NCBI GenBank assembly: GCA_027296805.1
Contig: JAPUIR010000268.1
Location: forward strand, 1-11,326
DNA from: Chloroflexota bacterium
Lineage (GTDB): Bacteria; Chloroflexota; Dehalococcoidia; Bin125
Reading direction: 5' to 3'
Length of the DNA stretch: 11,326 nt
This document shows positions 1,971 through 9,765 of the stretch, one piece after another. The translations under genes and the position numbers were made by a program. The notes beneath the pieces were generated by a model. That model was not told the origin of the DNA and did no database searches. It saw nothing but the letters and a program-made list of their open reading frames with translations. Numbering within the stretch: position 1 is the stretch's first letter; each line of letters starts with the position of its first letter.

Positions 1971-2621
1971 ATGCCTCCCGGCGCTGACGCCCCCACCGAC
2001 GACGACCTGGCCGAACGCGCGAAGGCCGGGGAGCTCGACGCCTTCAACCTGCTCGTAGAGCGCTACCAACGGCCGGTCTTTGGCCTTTGCGTGCGCATGC
2101 TCTCCTCCGCCGCCGCCGCCGAGGACGCCGCCCAGGACACGATGATCTCCGCTTGGCGCGGCCTCTCGGGCTATCGCGGGGGCTCCTTCCAGGCCTGGAT
2201 TCTGCGTATCGCCGGCAATCGGTGCCGGGACGAGCTGCGCAAGCGCAAGCGTCGTCCGCAGGACTCGCTCGATAGCCTGATGGAGGAACGCGGCGACGGG
2301 GCCGTGGGACCCGCCGATGGGCGCGGCCCCGAAGATCGCTCCCTGGACTCGGAGACCGGGCGGACAATTTTGGCCGGTTTGAACACGTTGCCGGAGGACC
2401 AGAAGCTGGCGATCCTGCTCTGTGACGTGCAAGGGCTTCCCTACGACGAGATTGCGCACACGATGCGCACTTCGGTGGGCACGGTGAAGTCCCGAATCAG
2501 TCGAGGCCGGGCGCGGATGCGCGACTACCTCATCGAGCGAGGGGAACTTCCGGCCCTCCAAGCACGTCTAGATCAACGCACGGGTGACCCGGCCCCAACC
2601 AGCATTGGGGCCCAAGAATGA
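1971..2621 (+). CDS. ECF-family RNA polymerase sigma factor (sigma-70 family)
   Basis: Directs RNA polymerase to a small regulon, usually one controlled by an extracytoplasmic signal through a partner anti-sigma factor. The 216 residues contain sigma region 2 at about 25-93 (FNLLVERYQRPVFGL, then EDAAQDTMISAWRGL, then FQAWILRIAGNRCRDELRKRKRR). A variable linker of about 40 residues follows, and region 4 is at about 133-187 with a helix-turn-helix (LPEDQKLAILL, then LPYDEIAHTM, then SVGTVKSRISRGRARMR). There is no region 1 or 3, as expected for ECF factors. The ATG at 1971 has AAGGA ten bases upstream. The stop overlaps the start of the next gene (ATGA at 2618-2621), which encodes its probable anti-sigma partner. 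The gene diverges from lepB with an inverted repeat between them. The target promoter and inducing signal cannot be read from the sequence. Confidence 0.92.
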   Translation: MPPGADAPTDDDLAERAKAGELDAFNLLVERYQRPVFGLCVRMLSSAAAAEDAAQDTMISAWRGLSGYRGGSFQAWILRIAGNRCRDELRKRKRRPQDSLDSLMEERGDGAVGPADGRGPEDRSLDSETGRTILAGLNTLPEDQKLAILLCDVQGLPYDEIAHTMRTSVGTVKSRISRGRARMRDYLIERGELPALQARLDQRTGDPAPTSIGAQE

Positions 2622-4012
2622 TGCCGAAACTATTGCAAGGGACTGTTGTGATCTGGGGATGGATTCGCCGCGCGCCGAACTGGTACGACGAGGCCTCGGC
2701 CTACGTCGACGGGGAGCTGTCCGCTCCACGCCGGGCGGCGTTCGAAGAGGCGCTTGGCGAGTCGCCCCAACTCCAGCGCTACCTGGACGAGCTGCAGGCG
2801 ACCAAGCAGGGGATCCAGCTCCTGCCGGAGGTCGAACTGCCTCGCTCCTTCACCATCTCTATCGCGCAAGCACAGGGCACGCCCAGACTCGTGCGGCGGG
2901 AGCCGGCCACGGTCGTGGGTCGCTGGTTCGGCGGCACGACCATGGTCCGCAACGCGGCGGCCTTCTCCGTGCTGGCGGGGGCGGCGTTCGCCGCCGTGGT
3001 CGCCGTGGATATCAGCGGCGATGGTGGCGGCACCGGCGTGCTGACACCTTCGCTGACCACAGTCGCTTCGACCGCCGCCGCGGAGGTCGAGCAGGAGACG
3101 GCGGTCGCCGCCGTCGCTCCGCGCGAGGAAACGGCGCAAGCAGCGGCCGATCAATCCGCCGGCGAGGAAAGTCTGGCTCTGGCGGAGTCGTCCGAGCAAG
3201 CGTTCGCACTACCGGCCGAGCAAGCGGCCGTTACACAAGCCGATACGGTCACCTCCGACTCGGTCGCTCAAGCCGCGCTGGCCGCCCCCGCGGACGGCGA
3301 GCAAGCCGCAGCGCCGCCCCCGCAGGCGGCCGCGCCACCCAGCGAAGACGAGGCAGCGACACAGTCCGAGACTCCGGCGCAAGAGCCCAGTAGCGAGCCG
3401 ACCGAGGCCATCGCCGCCGCTGCCGAGCCGGCCGACTCCGAAGAGGCGGGCAGCGCGGAGGAGGCCGCCACCGAGCAAGCAGTCGAGCAGGCAGCCGACG
3501 AGGAAGCCGTGAGCGAGCAGGCGCTGAGTGGTGCAACCGACAGCCAGGCGGTGTCGGAGGCGCTGATCGACACTCCCGACGAGGAAGCCGCCCCCGTTGC
3601 GGAGCAGCCTGTTCGCGAGTCGGAACCGGAGAGCGCTTCCAGCGCCGCGCCTGCCCGAGGCGAGGCGGTGCCGGAATCTCCCGACGAGGCCGTCACGATC
3701 GAGCGTGTTCCCGGCCAGGGCAGCGATCCCGAGGCCGACGAAGCTGCCGCGGACGAAGAGACCGCGCCGGACGTCGATCTCTCCTCCCTCTCCGACGACG
3801 ACGGGGCCGAGGCGGTCCCGGAGACGGTGGAGCGAGCCCTGTCGGCAACTGCGGTCGAACCTCCGGACTCCGCCGGCGAGAACGCGTTAATAGGCCAGGC
3901 GGGCGACGATGACAGTGTGCTCCTCATCCTGGAGATCGTGTTCGGCGTCGTGCTAGGGGTCTCGCTGGCGGCCGCCGCCCTCGCGCTGCGACGGCGTACC
4001 TCCGCGAGCTAG
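2618..4012 (+). CDS. transmembrane anti-sigma factor with zinc-less N-terminal domain and long acidic linker
   Basis: Probable membrane partner that holds the upstream ECF sigma factor inactive. Residues 22-80 match the anti-sigma domain pattern (YVDGELSAPRRAAFEEAL at 29-46, LPRSFTI at 74-80). However, the usual His-x3-Cys-x2-Cys zinc motif is absent: ESPQLQ stands where the Cys pair normally sits, and the 464-residue protein has no Cys or His anywhere. A first membrane helix (112-131) leads into about 300 residues rich in Glu, Ala, Asp, Ser, Pro and Gln with no recognisable fold. A second helix (433-457) follows, and the protein ends RRRTSAS. The predicted topology is both ends inside and the linker outside. 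The ATG at 2618 overlaps the sigma stop as ATGA. A GTG at 2648, preceded by AAGGGA, is a plausible shorter start. Anti-sigma function is inferred from position plus the domain pattern. Confidence 0.8.
   Translation: MMPKLLQGTVVIWGWIRRAPNWYDEASAYVDGELSAPRRAAFEEALGESPQLQRYLDELQATKQGIQLLPEVELPRSFTISIAQAQGTPRLVRREPATVVGRWFGGTTMVRNAAAFSVLAGAAFAAVVAVDISGDGGGTGVLTPSLTTVASTAAAEVEQETAVAAVAPREETAQAAADQSAGEESLALAESSEQAFALPAEQAAVTQADTVTSDSVAQAALAAPADGEQAAAPPPQAAAPPSEDEAATQSETPAQEPSSEPTEAIAAAAEPADSEEAGSAEEAATEQAVEQAADEEAVSEQALSGATDSQAVSEALIDTPDEEAAPVAEQPVRESEPESASSAAPARGEAVPESPDEAVTIERVPGQGSDPEADEAAADEETAPDVDLSSLSDDDGAEAVPETVERALSATAVEPPDSAGENALIGQAGDDDSVLLILEIVFGVVLGVSLAAAALALRRRTSAS
3035..3907 (+). repeat. 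low-complexity acidic coding region of the anti-sigma factor
   Basis: Codons 140-430 of the anti-sigma gene encode an Ala/Glu/Ser/Pro/Asp/Gln-rich, aromatic-poor stretch without a periodic unit. At DNA level the word GAGCAAGC recurs exactly at 3194-3201, 3218-3225, 3299-3306 and 3473-3480 in the same frame (Glu-Gln-Ala), with near variants between. This suggests growth by slippage or small duplications, followed by drift. Confidence 0.6.
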
Positions 4013-4218: not shown

Positions 4219-4803
4219 ATGATCCTCTCCGATCGCGACATCAAGACCGCGCTCGCGCAAGGGCGCATAGGCGTCGACCCCAGCAGGGGGGTCGAGGAGC
4301 GCATCGGGCCGGATTCGCTCGATTTCCGCCTCGGCTCGTCGTTCCTGGTGTTCGAACGCAGCAAGCAGCCCTACATCGATGCGCGCCGTCCCGAGACCGC
4401 GGAGGGCGCGTCGCGGACCATCGATCTGGAGGAGGGCGAGCCTTTCATCATCCACCCCCACGAGCTCGTGCTGGCCACCACCCTCGAGAGCTTGCGCCTG
4501 CCCGACGATCTCGCGGCGCGTCTGGAGGGCCGATCGTCGCTGGGGCGGCTGGGCATTATCGTCCACAGCACGGCCAGCCTGTTTCACGCGGGCTGGGACG
4601 GGCACGCGACCATGGAGCTGGGCAATCTGGGCGTGATGCCGGTCGCGCTGTACCCGGGCATGCGCATCTGTGCCTTCACGTTCGAGGAGCTGACCTCGCC
4701 CGCCGAGCATCCCTACGGCAGCCGCCCGGAGCACAAGTACGGTGGGCAGGACGGCGCCTCGGGCAGTCGAATCTGGGACGAGATCCCGGAGGAGCCCGCA
4801 TGA
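4219..4803 (+). CDS. dcd: dCTP deaminase (Dcd family)
   Basis: Deaminates dCTP to dUTP, supplying dUMP for thymidylate synthesis; some homologues also hydrolyse dUTP to dUMP. The 194-residue length is normal. Diagnostic features are MILSDRDI at the N terminus, GPDSLDFRLG (30-39), GRSSLGRLGI (104-113) with the Ser106 and Arg110 equivalents of E. coli Ser111 and Arg115, and the catalytic Glu133 in HATMELGN. The C-terminal nucleotide-lid region HPYGS..HKYGGQ is at 164-177. The segment VHSTAS (115-120) resembles the bifunctional deaminase/dUTPase proteins (HSTAG in the mycobacterial enzyme) more than the E. coli one. But the Asp of the usual I-D-P-G-W motif is replaced: the protein reads F-H-A-G-W (122-126). 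The ATG at 4219 follows GGAACGGAAC. Only 31 bases separate it from ribD, so it probably leads the rib transcript. Confidence 0.93.
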   Translation: MILSDRDIKTALAQGRIGVDPSRGVEERIGPDSLDFRLGSSFLVFERSKQPYIDARRPETAEGASRTIDLEEGEPFIIHPHELVLATTLESLRLPDDLAARLEGRSSLGRLGIIVHSTASLFHAGWDGHATMELGNLGVMPVALYPGMRICAFTFEELTSPAEHPYGSRPEHKYGGQDGASGSRIWDEIPEEPA

Positions 4804-4834: not shown

Positions 4835-6535
4835 ATGACCTCTCCTATCTCTCCCTATATGCGGGAAGCGCTGGACCAGGCCCGCGCAGTACTGGGCACG
4901 ACGAGCCCCAACCCCGCAGTGGGGGCTGTCGTTGTGCGGGATGGGCGGGTGGTGGGCGGCGGGGCGACCCAGCCGCCTGGGGGCGCGCACGCCGAGGTCA
5001 TGGCTTTGGACGAGGCCGGCGACGCCGCGCGCGGCGCCACCCTCTACGTGACGCTGGAGCCCTGTGCTCACCAGGGGCGAACGTCACCTTGCACGGACGC
5101 GATTCGGGAGGCGGGGGTAGCGGAGGTGGTGGTCGCTTTCGGCGACCCCGATCCCAAGGTCGACGGGGAGGGCATCCGCGCCCTGATCGAAGCGGGAGTC
5201 ACCGTGCGAACCGGCGACGGAGCGACGCAGGCTGCGCTGCACTATGAGGCGTATGCGCACCACCGTCGAAGTGGGCGGCCTTTCGTGACCGCCAAATACG
5301 CGGCCAGCCTGGACGGGAAGATCGCCGCTACCTCGGGCGACTCGCGCTGGGTGAGCGGGCCCGAAACGCGCGCCCGCGCCCACCTCCAGCGGCCCACGTT
5401 CGACGCGATTCTCGTCGGCGTTGGGACCATCTTGCTCGACGATCCCCAGCTCACGGCTCGTCCCGGTGGCTCCAGCGAGGGCGTGCCGCAGCCGCTGCGG
5501 GTCGTGTTGGATAGCCGCGGTCGCACCCCGCTCGATGCCCGGGTGCTGCAGGAGCAGAAGTTCGCGCCCACGCTGATTGCGACCACCGACCAAAGCTCGT
5601 CGGAGTGGCGCGACGCGATCGAGGGATTGGGAGTATGCATCGCTGTGCTTGAGTCGGAGGAGGGGCGCGTCGCCCTGGGGCCCCTGCTCGACCGGCTCAG
5701 CGGCGACGGTGTGGTCTCCCTCCTGGTCGAAGGGGGTGGTCAGGTCCACGGCAGCTTCTTCGACGCGGGGCTGGTCGACAAAGTGACTGCGATCATCGCG
5801 CCGCTGATCATCGGCGGCGATTCCGCGACGGCCGTGGTGGGGCGTGGCGCGGAGCGGATGCGGGACGCGATTCGCTTGCGTGACCTCAGCGTCGAGCGAC
5901 TGGGCGCCGATCTGTTGGTGACCGGATATCCGCTCGCCCCGGCGCCCGACGCCTCCGTCCGCGTCCGCGTGGCCGGAGCGGACGACTACGACGGTTTGTT
6001 GGCGCTGATCGAGGATGCGGCGGCACGCTTGGATCTGGGAGCAGACCTGGAGCGCGCCCTGGCGAACGCAGCGACGGGTGCGGGTGGCTTCTGGGTCGCG
6101 ATCGAGGGGAGTGGCGAGGATGAGGCGGGGCGTGTGGTTGGCGGCGTGGCCCTGGCGTTCCACGATCCGGCTTGGCCGGAGCGAGCCGACGGGCGACATC
6201 GTGCCGGACTAGAGCAGCTCCGCGTCGCAGCCGAATGGCGCGCGCACGGGCTGGCGGTTCGCTTGCTGGAGAGCGCCGAGGCCGCCGCCGAAGGGCGGGG
6301 CTTCGCCTGGCTCACGGCCCTGCCCAGCCCAGGGCTCACGGTGCCCAGCGGCGGGCCTCCCGCTGCAGCGGGCGAGAGCGATGCATCCGGTTTGACACCG
6401 GACGACTGGCGAGCGCGGGGCTTTCGGTACTATCGCCGCAGCCCAGAAGGGGCCTCGCTTCGAATCAAACAGCTCCGTCCGGAGCCCGACTTGGAAGCGA
6501 CACGCGGTCAGAGCGACCCGAGTGGGAGGACCTAA
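4835..6535 (+). CDS. ribD: bifunctional riboflavin deaminase/reductase RibD fused to a C-terminal GNAT acetyltransferase-like domain
   Basis: RibD deaminates the GTP-derived 2,5-diaminopyrimidinone phosphate and then reduces its ribosyl chain with NADPH. Residues 7-145 are the deaminase: the zinc ligands and proton shuttle are His52-Ala-Glu54 plus Cys77 and Cys86 in EPCAHQGRTSPC. Residues 148-364 are the reductase (KYAASLDGKIA at 154-164, GVGTILLDDPQLTAR at 195-209, LLVEGGGQVHGSFFD at 296-310) and end at the usual LLVTGY. Instead of stopping near 370, the frame runs to 566. Residues 375-545 show the GNAT order: RVRVAGADDYDGLLALI, FWVAIEG then GRVVGGVALAF, motif A at 459-478 (EQLRVAAEWRAHGLAVRLL, with the acetyl-CoA loop R469-A-H-G472-L-A474), and a late WRARGFRYYRR. 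A Pro/Gly/Ala insert (about 497-522) precedes that last part. The ATG at 4835 gives the standard N terminus (YMREAL). Upstream codons in this frame overlap dcd and look unrelated. The acetyl acceptor is unknown. Confidence 0.9.
   Translation: MTSPISPYMREALDQARAVLGTTSPNPAVGAVVVRDGRVVGGGATQPPGGAHAEVMALDEAGDAARGATLYVTLEPCAHQGRTSPCTDAIREAGVAEVVVAFGDPDPKVDGEGIRALIEAGVTVRTGDGATQAALHYEAYAHHRRSGRPFVTAKYAASLDGKIAATSGDSRWVSGPETRARAHLQRPTFDAILVGVGTILLDDPQLTARPGGSSEGVPQPLRVVLDSRGRTPLDARVLQEQKFAPTLIATTDQSSSEWRDAIEGLGVCIAVLESEEGRVALGPLLDRLSGDGVVSLLVEGGGQVHGSFFDAGLVDKVTAIIAPLIIGGDSATAVVGRGAERMRDAIRLRDLSVERLGADLLVTGYPLAPAPDASVRVRVAGADDYDGLLALIEDAAARLDLGADLERALANAATGAGGFWVAIEGSGEDEAGRVVGGVALAFHDPAWPERADGRHRAGLEQLRVAAEWRAHGLAVRLLESAEAAAEGRGFAWLTALPSPGLTVPSGGPPAAAGESDASGLTPDDWRARGFRYYRRSPEGASLRIKQLRPEPDLEATRGQSDPSGRT
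6524..6530 (+). promoter_or_regulatory. ribosome binding site for the GTG start of ribE
   Basis: GGGAGGA lies inside the last codons of ribD, eight bases before a GTG at 6539. It supports this non-ATG start, which gives the family's fixed N terminus MFTGIVEE. Confidence 0.65.
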
Positions 6536-6538
6536 GGC

Positions 6539-7129
6539 GTGTTCACCGGCATCGTGGAGGAGATTGGCACGGTCCTGGAGGCCGCCGACGGGCTGCTCAA
6601 GATCGAAGCGACCACGGTGACGCAAGACACCAAGCTGGGCGACAGCATCGCGATCAACGGCGTCGATCTGACGGTGATGGAGATGACGGACTCGATGATG
6701 GCGTTCAACGTCATGCCGGAGACGTATCGCCGCTCCAACCTGATCAAGCTGAGCGCCGGAGACCGGGTCAATCTGGAACGCTCGGTGCGGCCCACCGACC
6801 GGCTGAGCGGGCACATCGTGCGGGGCGTGGTGGAGACGACCTGTCGCATCGCGGCGATCGAGCCGGAGGTGGACGCGGTCGTCGTGCACTACGAAGCGCC
6901 GGCCGACTATCTGCGCTTCATCGTGGTCAAGGGGCCGGTCTGTCTCGATGGGACGAGTCTGACCGTGGTCGACAAGACGGAGACGACGTTCGCCGTGTCG
7001 CTGGTCCAATATACTCAGGAGCACACGAACATCCTGGGCCGAGAGATCGGCGACGAGGTGAACCTCGAGACGGATATTCTTGCTCGCTACGTCGCGGAGC
7101 TGCTCGCGGCGCGGGGACTCTCGGCCTAA
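6539..7129 (+). CDS. ribE: riboflavin synthase, alpha chain
   Basis: Dismutates two 6,7-dimethyl-8-ribityllumazine molecules to riboflavin plus the diaminopyrimidine that returns to lumazine synthase. The 196 residues form the usual two tandem lumazine-binding barrels. The first is about 1-88 ([21 protein letters not shown] at 36-46, METY-type segment [17 protein letters not shown]). The second is about 89-185 ([22 protein letters not shown] at 131-145, [12 protein letters not shown] at 174-185). Phe2 and the second-barrel Ser140 region are kept. Two normally conserved positions differ: the Cys of GVCLT/GCCLT is Asp43, and the second His of the GH-x3-GH motif is Val97 (GHIVRGVVE). The gene begins with GTG three bases after the ribD stop and uses a clear Shine-Dalgarno inside ribD. 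Family membership is secure; catalytic normality is less so. Confidence 0.9.
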
Positions 7130-7145: not shown

Positions 7146-8495
7146 ATGGCCTCACGCAAGCGCACCTCGAACGGGAAGAGCGATCAGAGCGACGGTCCGC
7201 GCAGTCCCTTCGTGAGCGTCGAAGGGGCGATTGAGCAGTTTCAGCGCGGCGAGCCGATCATCATCACGGAGGGCGAGGACCGCGAGAACGAAGGCGATAT
7301 CTGCCTGCCGGCGCAGTTCGTCACGCCGGAGTGGATCAATTTCATGGCCAAGTACGGCCGCGGGTTGATCTGCGTGGGAATGGGGACCGAGCGGCTGGAC
7401 GCGCTGGGCCTCAAGCTGATGGTGGAACAGCCGGACGGCGGCTCCTCCGGCAGCAGCGCGTTCACCGTCTCGGTAGAGGCGCGCAACGGCGTGGGGACGG
7501 GCGTCTCGGCCGCCGATCGGGCACGCACCATCCACGTCCTGATGGATCCCAACGCAACCGCGGCCGACATCGTGCAGCCGGGCCATATGTTCCCGCTGCG
7601 CTCACGCGATGGCGGCGTCCTGGTGCGAGCCGGCCACACGGAGGCCGGCACCGACCTCTGCCGTCTGGCGGGGCTTCAGCCGGGGGCCGTGCTCTGCGAG
7701 ATCATGAAGAGCGACGGCGCGATGGCACAGTTGCCGGAGCTGAAGCGGTTCTCGCGACGTCACAAGATCCCGATGCTCCGGATCGAGCAGTTGATCCAGC
7801 ACCGGCTGCGCACCGAGCGCCTGATTGAGCGGGTGGCGGACGCCAATCTGCCCACGCGGTTCGGCAGCTTCCGCATCATCGGCTACAAGGTGAAGGGTGA
7901 GTTGGAGGAGCACATCGCGCTGGTCATGGGCGATGTCGCGACGCGCGAGCCGGTCCTGGTTCGGGTGCACTCCCAGTGTCTGACGGGCGATCTGCTGGGC
8001 TCGCTGCGCTGCGACTGTGGCGACCAGATGGAGATCGCGCTGGAGCGGATCGCCGCCGAAGGCCGGGGCGCGTTCGTCTATATGCGGCAGGAGGGGCGCG
8101 GGATCGGGCTGCACAACAAGATCCGGGCGTACGCCTTGCAAGACGAGGGCATGGACACGGTGGAGGCCAACCTGGCGCTGGGCTTCCCGGAGGACCGCCG
8201 CGACTACGGGATCGGGATGCAGATCCTGCGCGACCTGGGCATCCACAAGATCCGGCTGCTGACCAACAACCCGGCCAAGCGCCACGGGCTCTCTGGCTAC
8301 GGCCTGGAGGTGGAGGAGCGGCTCCCGATCGAAGCGCGGCCCAACCCGCACAACATCCGTTACCTGGCGACCAAGCAGGAGAAGATGGGGCACTTGCTGG
8401 AGGATGCGGAAGTCGCGAAGGAAGTCTCGCGAGGGCGGGCGGAGGCGAAAGACGCGTCCGCGAAGGATGACGACATCGGGCAGACAGCCGGATAG
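7146..8495 (+). CDS. ribBA: bifunctional 3,4-dihydroxy-2-butanone-4-phosphate synthase / GTP cyclohydrolase II
   Basis: Supplies both precursors of riboflavin: the four-carbon unit from ribulose 5-phosphate (RibB part) and the pyrimidine from GTP (RibA part). With ATG at 7146 it has 449 residues, and GGGAG lies six bases upstream. Residues 21-220 are RibB, with the acidic metal/substrate loop EDRENEGD (44-51), [20 protein letters not shown] (107-126) and GHTEAGTDL (163-171). Residues 238-418 are RibA, with the zinc cysteines in HSQC (Cys278) and RCDCG (Cys289, Cys291), the GTP/phosphate motif RQEGRGIGL (314-322), LLTNNPAKR (371-379) and a C-terminal [17 protein letters not shown] short Lys/Asp/Ala-rich tail (about 420-449) follows the fold. 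The leading 20 residues are polar and look disordered. A longer frame from 7080 would overlap ribE and lacks family sequence. Confidence 0.95.
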
Positions 8496-8501
8496 CGCGG
8501 C

Positions 8502-8975
8502 ATGGCCAACATCCACCGGGGCAGCGAGGACGCGAGCGGTCTGCGCTTCGCGGTCGTGGTGGCGCGCTACAACGACTTCATCACCAAGCCGCTACTCGAC
8601 GGTTGCCTGCGTACGCTGGCGGAGGCCGGCGCTGCGTCGGACGATGTGGACGCGTACTGGGTGCCGGGCGCGTTCGAGATTCCGATCGTCGCCCAGCAGG
8701 CCGCGCGCAGCGGCCGCTACGACGCGGTGATCTGCCTGGGCGCCGTGATCCAGGGCGAGACCGATCACTATCGGCTGGTCGCGGAAGAGGTGGCACGCGG
8801 GATCGCGCGGGTTGGTCTGGAGACTGGCGTCGCCTGCATCTTCGAGGTGCTTGCTACGCCAACCACTGAACTGGCCGTCGCGCGAGCGGGCGGGGATGCC
8901 GGGAACAAAGGCGAAGAGGCGGCCTTCGCGGCCATCGAGACGGCGCGCGTGCTGGGCGAGGTTGCGGACGGCTAG
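8502..8975 (+). CDS. ribH: 6,7-dimethyl-8-ribityllumazine synthase
   Basis: Condenses the ribitylaminopyrimidine with dihydroxybutanone phosphate to lumazine, the substrate of riboflavin synthase; family members assemble as pentamers or 60-mer shells. The 157-residue length is normal. Landmarks are the substrate-loop RYNDFIT (22-28), VPGAFEIP (54-61), GAVIQGETDHY (80-90) with the catalytic His89, the phosphate-site Arg128, and GNKGEEAAFAAIE (134-146) at the end. After the catalytic His the common HF/Y-D/E-Y sequence is here HYRLV, and the usual FGVLTT reads FEVLATP, so it is a somewhat diverged member. It starts six bases after the ribBA stop without a clear Shine-Dalgarno, so translation probably depends on coupling. 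It closes the rib run. The 121-base gap that follows carries the promoter of the next operon and no convincing terminator. Confidence 0.93.
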   Translation: MANIHRGSEDASGLRFAVVVARYNDFITKPLLDGCLRTLAEAGAASDDVDAYWVPGAFEIPIVAQQAARSGRYDAVICLGAVIQGETDHYRLVAEEVARGIARVGLETGVACIFEVLATPTTELAVARAGGDAGNKGEEAAFAAIETARVLGEVADG

Positions 8976-9096: not shown

Positions 9097-9765
9097 TTGC
9101 CGACTCCGGACACTCGTTCCAACGTCGATCAACCAGAGTGGCTCAGCCTGGGCGACGCCAGCCGGGCGCTGGGCGTCAACAGCTCCACGCTGCGGCGCTG
9201 GGCGGATGCGCGCCTGGTGCGCACGTTTCGCACGCCCGGCGGCCACCGCCGTTTCTCGGCCAGCGACCTCGACCGCTTGATGGGGGCCGGGGTCGACCCG
9301 GCCCAGGAGCTTGACGACGAGGCGGTCGCCCGCATCCGCGAACGCTTACAGCGCGACGCCGGCTCCGATCGCAGCTGGCTCGACCGGCTGACGCCCGAGG
9401 CCCGGCGGGATCTGGGCGACCTGGGCCGGCGCATGGTGCATCTGCTCGAAGGCTATGTGGCGCCCGAGGCCGAGGACCTGCCAGCGTTGGAGCTGGAGGC
9501 GGCGGAGATCGGTGGTCGCTACGCGGAGCTGCTGCATCTTGCCAACGTGACACTGACCGAAGCGGTGACGGCGTTCGCCTATTTCCGTCGGGGACTGGAC
9601 GAGGCGTTACGCGCCTACGCCGGCCGCCAGGGCATGAGCGGCGATGCGGCCGATGCGCTGTGGGAGAAAGCGGCCACGTTGGAAGACCGGGTGTTGGTGG
9701 CCTTGACCGCCTCCTACGAACAGCGTTTCCCGCTCCCGTCCTCCCCGACCGAAGGGGAGCGCTAG
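9097..9765 (+). CDS. MerR-type helix-turn-helix regulator with unrecognised helical C-terminal domain
   Basis: Probable DNA-binding regulator of the tetrapyrrole operon that it heads. Residues 16-64 are a MerR/BldC-like winged helix-turn-helix (LSLGDASRALGVNSSTLRRW, then TPGGHRRFSASDLDRL at 46-61). Residues 75-210 are predicted mostly helical, with Glu/Leu/Ala-rich segments (RRDLGDLGRRMVHLLEGYV, YAELLHLANVTLTEAVTAF, YFRRGLDEALRAYA). I do not recognise this part as a ligand domain; it may be a helical bundle that senses a signal or dimerises. It lacks the cysteine metal site of classical MerR metal sensors: no Cys is present. The start is TTG at 9097, since no ATG or GTG in this frame precedes the HTH; its Shine-Dalgarno is weak (GGG at 9088-9090). 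The stop is two bases before the next gene. Confidence 0.82.
   Translation: MPTPDTRSNVDQPEWLSLGDASRALGVNSSTLRRWADARLVRTFRTPGGHRRFSASDLDRLMGAGVDPAQELDDEAVARIRERLQRDAGSDRSWLDRLTPEARRDLGDLGRRMVHLLEGYVAPEAEDLPALELEAAEIGGRYAELLHLANVTLTEAVTAFAYFRRGLDEALRAYAGRQGMSGDAADALWEKAATLEDRVLVALTASYEQRFPLPSSPTEGER

Follow-up and report, generated by a model that had tools for sequence, protein, structure and literature searches.

A GNAT-Type Domain Fused to RibD in One Family of Dehalococcoidia, With and Without Its Acetyl-CoA Loop

The Fused ribD Gene and Its Operon

The window (the whole stretch of DNA analysed here, 11,326 nt) contains a cluster of riboflavin genes, one of which encodes a RibD of unusual length. 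Residues 9-362 of the product give a full-length match to TIGR00326, the curated equivalog model of RibD/RibG (333.7 bits against a cut-off of 156.35), and correspond to an ordinary, complete RibD within a rib operon. The protein differs from this model by about 200 added C-terminal residues. The genes and features are as follows.

4219-4803, plus strand: dcd, dCTP deaminase, the upstream neighbour (TIGR02274, E 2.4e-57)
4835-6535, plus strand: ribD-GNAT fusion gene, 566 codons and a TAA stop at 6533-6535; preferred start ATG at 4835
4853-5137, plus strand: deaminase domain of RibD, residues 7-101 (PF00383, E 3e-17)
5279-5917, plus strand: reductase domain of RibD, residues 149-361 (PF01872, E 6e-51)
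5927-5953, plus strand: linker from the reductase end to the first GNAT strand, residues 365-373 (from secondary structure; P366 in 26/26 aligned proteins)
5954-6478, plus strand: GNAT domain, residues 374-548
6239-6256, plus strand: acetyl-CoA pyrophosphate loop RAHGLA, residues 469-474 (pattern [RQ]xxGx[GA], between strand 4 and helix 3)
6326-6379, plus strand: low-confidence insert, residues 498-515 (pLDDT <50; alignment gaps)
6419-6439, plus strand: GFRYYRR motif, residues 529-535 (G[FY]RY[YF]R in 26/26 aligned proteins, loop-bearing and loop-less)
6539-7129, plus strand: ribE, riboflavin synthase (NF006767, E 4.4e-57)
7146-8495, plus strand: ribBA (NF006803, E 1.7e-173; start picked by eye)
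8502-8975, plus strand: ribH, lumazine synthase (TIGR00114, E 6.1e-44)
9097-9765: BldC/MerR-like DNA-binding protein, directly after ribH (HTH_BldC 44.2 bits, under its cut-off of 77)

Because dcd lies upstream and ribE, ribBA and ribH lie downstream, the fusion gene is placed in the rib operon. The same order, dcd-ribD-ribE-ribBA-ribH, is seen by eye in the family genome G006, and ribH is located 1.97-2.35 kb past the ribD match in all 16 family genomes that carry both on one contig. A frame resembling the BldC/MerR-like protein also follows ribH in G006 (by eye), and this protein is possibly a regulator of the operon. At gathering cut-offs, the window yields no match to Rfam families, the FMN riboswitch among them. 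Further upstream (positions 1971-4012), an ECF sigma factor (TIGR02937) overlaps a 464-residue protein rich in Ala and Glu. This protein has no match in NCBIfam, carries a hydrophobic stretch at its C-terminus (by eye) and is perhaps the anti-sigma partner of the sigma factor.

Two further observations concern RibD-type sequences in the family. A second RibD_C-like reductase (G000:C368:2329-2904, minus strand) shares 29% identity with RibD residues 147-335, and frames of about 250 codons with matches of this kind occur in 16 of 20 family genomes, G000 included. In genus g3, six RibDs (L014, L015, L016, L017, L018, and L019) have an insert of approximately 16-25 residues right ahead of the deaminase HAE motif; in the alignment, this insert follows residue 48 of the window protein.

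The C-Terminal GNAT Domain

The tail comprises residues 365-566 (202 residues) and matches Acetyltransf_1 (PF00583) over residues 412-493 with 33.2 bits (cut-off 20.7, E 6.8e-8), that is, within the same 566-residue frame as the TIGR00326 match. The original prediction of a RibD fused to a GNAT-type domain is thus borne out, and the sequence profile and the predicted structure together identify the tail as a GNAT fold. The acetyl-CoA loop (R469-A474) and the GFRYYRR motif (from G529) both lie where proposed earlier. In the AlphaFold2 model of the whole protein (mean pLDDT 64.1, pTM 0.41, 10 sequences) the RibD part is poor, so that the placement of the tail domain against RibD is unreadable. 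In a VIA-align comparison of the full predicted model, no RibT (a GNAT of riboflavin operons to which we return below) is among the 50 hits listed; these are dominated by RibD and deaminases and are uninformative on RibT. The tail resembles GNAT superfamily structures such as 3f0a (T. acidophilum Ta0374) and 4kvx (Naa10) in fold, strand order and acetyl-CoA loop, but differs in its fusion to RibD, in a tryptophan at the usual tyrosine place near the end of helix 4, in an invariant G[FY]RY[YF]R hairpin and in the absence of the loop from sister lineages.

Residues identical in all 26 aligned fused proteins include R378, W420, G436, R476, E482, G529, R531, Y532, R534, and K545. The low-confidence insert is shortened or missing in the other proteins except P0001, which is near-identical to the window protein. 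Read by eye from the alignment, E460 occupies the strand-4 acid place, where the 11 loop-bearing proteins have E, Q or D (7, 2, and 2, respectively), and W525 occupies the usual helix-4 tyrosine place, with tryptophan in 11/11. We take the helix-4 tyrosine to be the general acid of GNATs and the strand-4 acid to be the base. Not all GNATs use these two residues.

Distribution of the Fusion

At least nine full-length fused relatives were found among the 7996 database candidates scored, with E-values for the tail region between 8.3e-113 and 8.2e-12. Among 20 genomes of the family, the window's included, ribD is fused in 18 of the 18 that carry it (17 complete, one ended by its contig), and none has a stop at the junction. 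The two genomes without ribD are G004, whose contig ends just upstream of ribE, and G013, in which neither ribD nor ribH was found. The fused architecture, which the original prediction had proposed to seek in related genomes, hence occurs in 17 other family genomes and at least nine database proteins, two sets that may overlap.

A frame that runs open past the end of RibD, without a stop or an evident separate start, had also been claimed, and this holds. In-frame start-like codons within the inspected residues 351-392 are found at residues 361, 362, 379, 388, and 389, and no ribosome-binding site is evident by eye before any of the five. Given 72% G+C, the openness of the frame alone is weak evidence for a fusion: random sequences as long as the tail are stop-free in 442 of 20,000 cases with mononucleotide shuffling and in 524 of 20,000 with first-order resampling (2-3%). 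Conservation provides the strong evidence and settles the matter. Two genes merged through a frame error or through assembly, a reading that this chance openness might favour, are refuted in practice by the recurrence of the fusion in independent genomes, and we consider such an artefact extremely improbable.

Outside the family, RibD ends soon after the reductase. Of 21 further genomes of the class, 12 yielded a ribD locus; seven of these RibDs extend 1-21 residues past the reductase (measured) and five about 12 or fewer (by eye). In a wider sample of 393 genomes of the class, 337 have a RibD match at E<=1e-60; among the matches listed, none outside the family reaches beyond query residue 429, and the non-family matches beyond residue 384 have in-frame stops. 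Judged by these sequences, the fusion is family-wide within Dehalococcoidia. No description of a RibD-GNAT fusion was found in the open-licence full texts searched, in agreement with the earlier statement that no described one was known; the supplementary fusion tables of PMC4921024 lie outside that scope.

For searches with the tail alone, a profile was built from seven of 12 loop-bearing tails, without P0001, P0004, P0006, P0007 or the fragment P0010. At E<=1e-7 a profile of the tail matches 12 of 400 genomes of the phylum, four with a fusion, all of the window's family, and eight with stand-alone frames of 182-255 codons. In the 1.5-kb flanks on each side of seven of these eight frames (L149 left out), no rib genes were seen by eye. 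Among the database candidates scored, the tail query returned at least two fragments and no stand-alone close relative. With the seven-row profile (7993 candidates scored), at least four proteins were retrieved, of which P0010 is a true RibD piece. P0011, P0012 (ApbE), and P0013 have unrelated N-termini joined to a RibD-type GNAT tail at differing points inside the domain. Each occurs on a single contig, and all three are probable assembly chimeras. A weak match in G027 is by eye 2-oxoacid oxidoreductase-like and was set aside as a chance match. In another Chloroflexota genome, a long repeat array (L141:1-1422; 10-residue translated unit RGDTRGYAGI) lies beside a stand-alone GNAT.

Loop-Bearing and Loop-Less Tails

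The 26 aligned fused proteins (G019, whose tail is ended by its contig, was excluded from alignments and tree) fall into two groups. The loop [RQ]xxGx[GA] is present in 11, namely the window protein, G006 and nine database proteins, in the form R-x-H-G-[LV]-[AG]. It is absent from the other 15 (G001, G003, and 13 genomes of genus g3), which have a one-residue gap at its place. A Pfam GNAT match at E<=1 is obtained for 7/7 loop-bearing tails scanned and for 1/15 loop-less tails, that one under its cut-off. Since the loop pattern fails in the loop-less tails, their GNAT fold is established by homology only; the two groups are homologous according to hhalign (99.7%, E 2.6e-25). Mean identity within the two groups is 51-52% for the tail and 72-78% for RibD.

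A tree of 38 sequences based on the RibD part only, tail excluded, and including all 12 RibDs of the other families of the class, places the fused proteins in one clade (support 96/94). On this RibD tree the fusion has a single origin. The three states, no tail, loop and no loop, need three changes, one gain and two losses. Two losses are required, since the tree puts G001 beside the G006/P0009 pair but G003 beside g3; the branches behind the second loss have moderate support (87/79 and 89/92), and in 6% of 200 bootstrap trees a single branch sets all loop-less proteins apart from the rest. That the loop was lost on two separate occasions is favoured, not proven. The loop would be the ancestral state, as GNATs arise from GNATs.

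Selection on the loop-less domain can be estimated where sequences are close. With a simple counting method, five pairs have a RibD dS <0.8, all of them in genus g3, and their dN/dS is 0.13-0.29 in the tail and 0.09-0.14 in RibD:

G011-G016: tail 0.21, RibD 0.12
G005-G018: tail 0.17, RibD 0.09
G008-G007: tail 0.13, RibD 0.11
G012-G002: tail 0.29, RibD 0.14
G002-G017: tail 0.24, RibD 0.14

Thus, the loop-less domain in g3 evolves faster than RibD but, by these estimates, is clearly under purifying selection. For g3, at least, these ratios indicate that something besides ordinary acetyl-CoA chemistry is selected in the tail. For G001 and G003 only distant pairs are available, in which dS is saturated and dN/dS of the tail lies mostly at 0.3-0.7, so that weak constraint may apply there; in these two genomes the case for constraint comes from the shared motif alone. 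The faster evolution of the tail and a loop lost twice on the best tree would also fit a functionless domain that is decaying as a passenger in the loop-less lineages. The low ratios in g3 argue against such decay, as do the frames, which are open to the conserved end in 15/15 loop-less tails, and the invariant C-terminal motif. We regard it as quite improbable.

Acetylation as a Possible Role

In the original prediction, the tail might acetylate reactive aminopyrimidines and so divert or detoxify them, or modify riboflavin or a partner enzyme. A small-molecule acetyltransferase of this kind, acting on the amino-pyrimidine or ribitylaminouracil intermediates or on an unrelated amine so as to divert or protect them, is suggested by a GNAT fold with an intact loop joined to the enzyme that produces these intermediates. 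A survey also describes the compound that passes from one RibD activity to the other as highly reactive, with a tendency of the neighbouring enzymes to be fused (PMC4921024). Yet the domain is retained in the 15 of 26 fused proteins that lack the loop, and tryptophan replaces the usual helix-4 tyrosine in all loop-bearing proteins. An acetylated 5-amino group would also block the next step, given lumazine synthase chemistry. Because the loop is absent in 15/26 and the loop-less domain in g3 is under purifying selection, detoxifying acetylation cannot be the common reason for the fusion. Small-molecule acetylation is altogether an unlikely role; acetylation of aminopyrimidines keeps a slim chance for the window's protein but does not explain why the family has retained the domain.

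Other fusions in flavin pathways offer partial parallels. The PyrR/COG3236 damage-control fusion, named earlier as precedent, holds insofar as an accessory domain is fused to a riboflavin enzyme, as here (COG3236 table entry in PMC4921024); RibT, overlooked at that time, is closer (PMC9048828). No COG3236 N-glycosidase domain was found in the tail, whose Pfam matches at E<=1 are to GNAT families only. In plants, FAD synthetase carries a fused FAD pyrophosphatase that has been inactivated (PMC9678776), a flavin-pathway fusion in which the partner domain is inactive yet kept. It differs from RibD-GNAT in enzymes and organisms, and the loss in the present family is lineage-specific and deduced from a motif.

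RibT is a GNAT encoded by the last gene of the rib operon in B. subtilis. According to PMC9048828, RibT binds RibE and RibH, acetylates K29 of RibH and shifts capsids towards pentamers, and shows no interaction with RibDG or RibAB; its C-terminus matters for contacts, and the effect on capsids seemingly also arises via interactions beyond K29 acetylation. Like the tail, RibT is a GNAT with an acetyl-CoA loop that is tied genetically to riboflavin synthesis (PMC9048828; PMC4207565), but it stands alone, is about 120 residues long and is encoded after ribH, while the tail has 202 residues and is fused to RibD. In the window, the gene after ribH encodes the BldC/MerR-like protein and not a stand-alone short GNAT. 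An hhalign comparison of the tail with five Bacillales proteins, taken as RibT from their position after ribH, gives 49% over 44 columns, confined to the GNAT core. Orthology of the tail to RibT is thus unsupported.

The tethered domain might nevertheless act as RibT does and acetylate a riboflavin enzyme (RibH, RibE or RibD itself), tuning complex assembly. This is consistent with the intact loop of the window protein, with the dcd-ribD-ribE-ribBA-ribH operon and the proximity of ribH to ribD across the family, and with the reported acetylation of RibH by RibT. Against it stand the restriction of the profile similarity to the GNAT core and the distribution of the target lysine. Aligned by eye, the K29 equivalent of RibH is present in 8/8 Bacillales loci, absent in both loop-bearing genomes read (the window, with proline at this place and lysine one position earlier, and G006, with valine) and present in 11 of 15 loop-less genomes (G004 left out). 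This pattern is the reverse of that expected, with two loop-bearing genomes on one side of it, and K29 of RibH is not favoured as the target of the tail. Acetylation of a riboflavin enzyme in the manner of RibT is, taken together, doubtful.

A Possible Common Binding Role

The reading we favour, at somewhat less than even confidence, is that a binding or assembly role is common to all fused proteins and that acetylation is kept in the window's lineage. A single event in the ancestor of one Dehalococcoidia family attached a GNAT acetyltransferase gene to the end of ribD. The acetyl-CoA loop would later have been lost, with two losses favoured, and the rest of the domain kept. The common selected job might be binding via the basic-aromatic C-terminal hairpin, G[FY]RY[YF]R...K, to RibD itself, to another riboflavin enzyme or to a phosphorylated ligand. 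Thereby, the pathway complex could be organised or stabilised, a parallel being the contacts of RibT with RibE and RibH in B. subtilis. The domain of the window's lineage probably still binds acetyl-CoA as well and may acetylate a partner.

From residue conservation, we infer that the arginine/tyrosine/lysine cluster of the last hairpin is the likeliest putative binding surface; alternatively, these residues might merely hold the fold. As the window's branch is loop-bearing in 9/9 proteins, a catalytic role may be primary in the window protein. A more specific proposal, possible though on the unlikely side, is that of a pseudo-GNAT, a once-recruited domain that was probably twice made non-acetylating. 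Its hairpin would hold the phosphorylated, reactive RibD product or dock the next enzymes, channelling or retaining the vitamin intermediate, and the window would represent the ancestral, catalytic-looking state.

Why a GNAT occurs in riboflavin operons, as in the case of RibT, is still unsettled. In this family, RibD and GNAT are covalently joined throughout, in natural versions with an intact loop and without the loop. Comparing both versions would allow the parts played by acetylation and by binding in riboflavin synthesis to be told apart directly, and the acceptor need not be guessed first.
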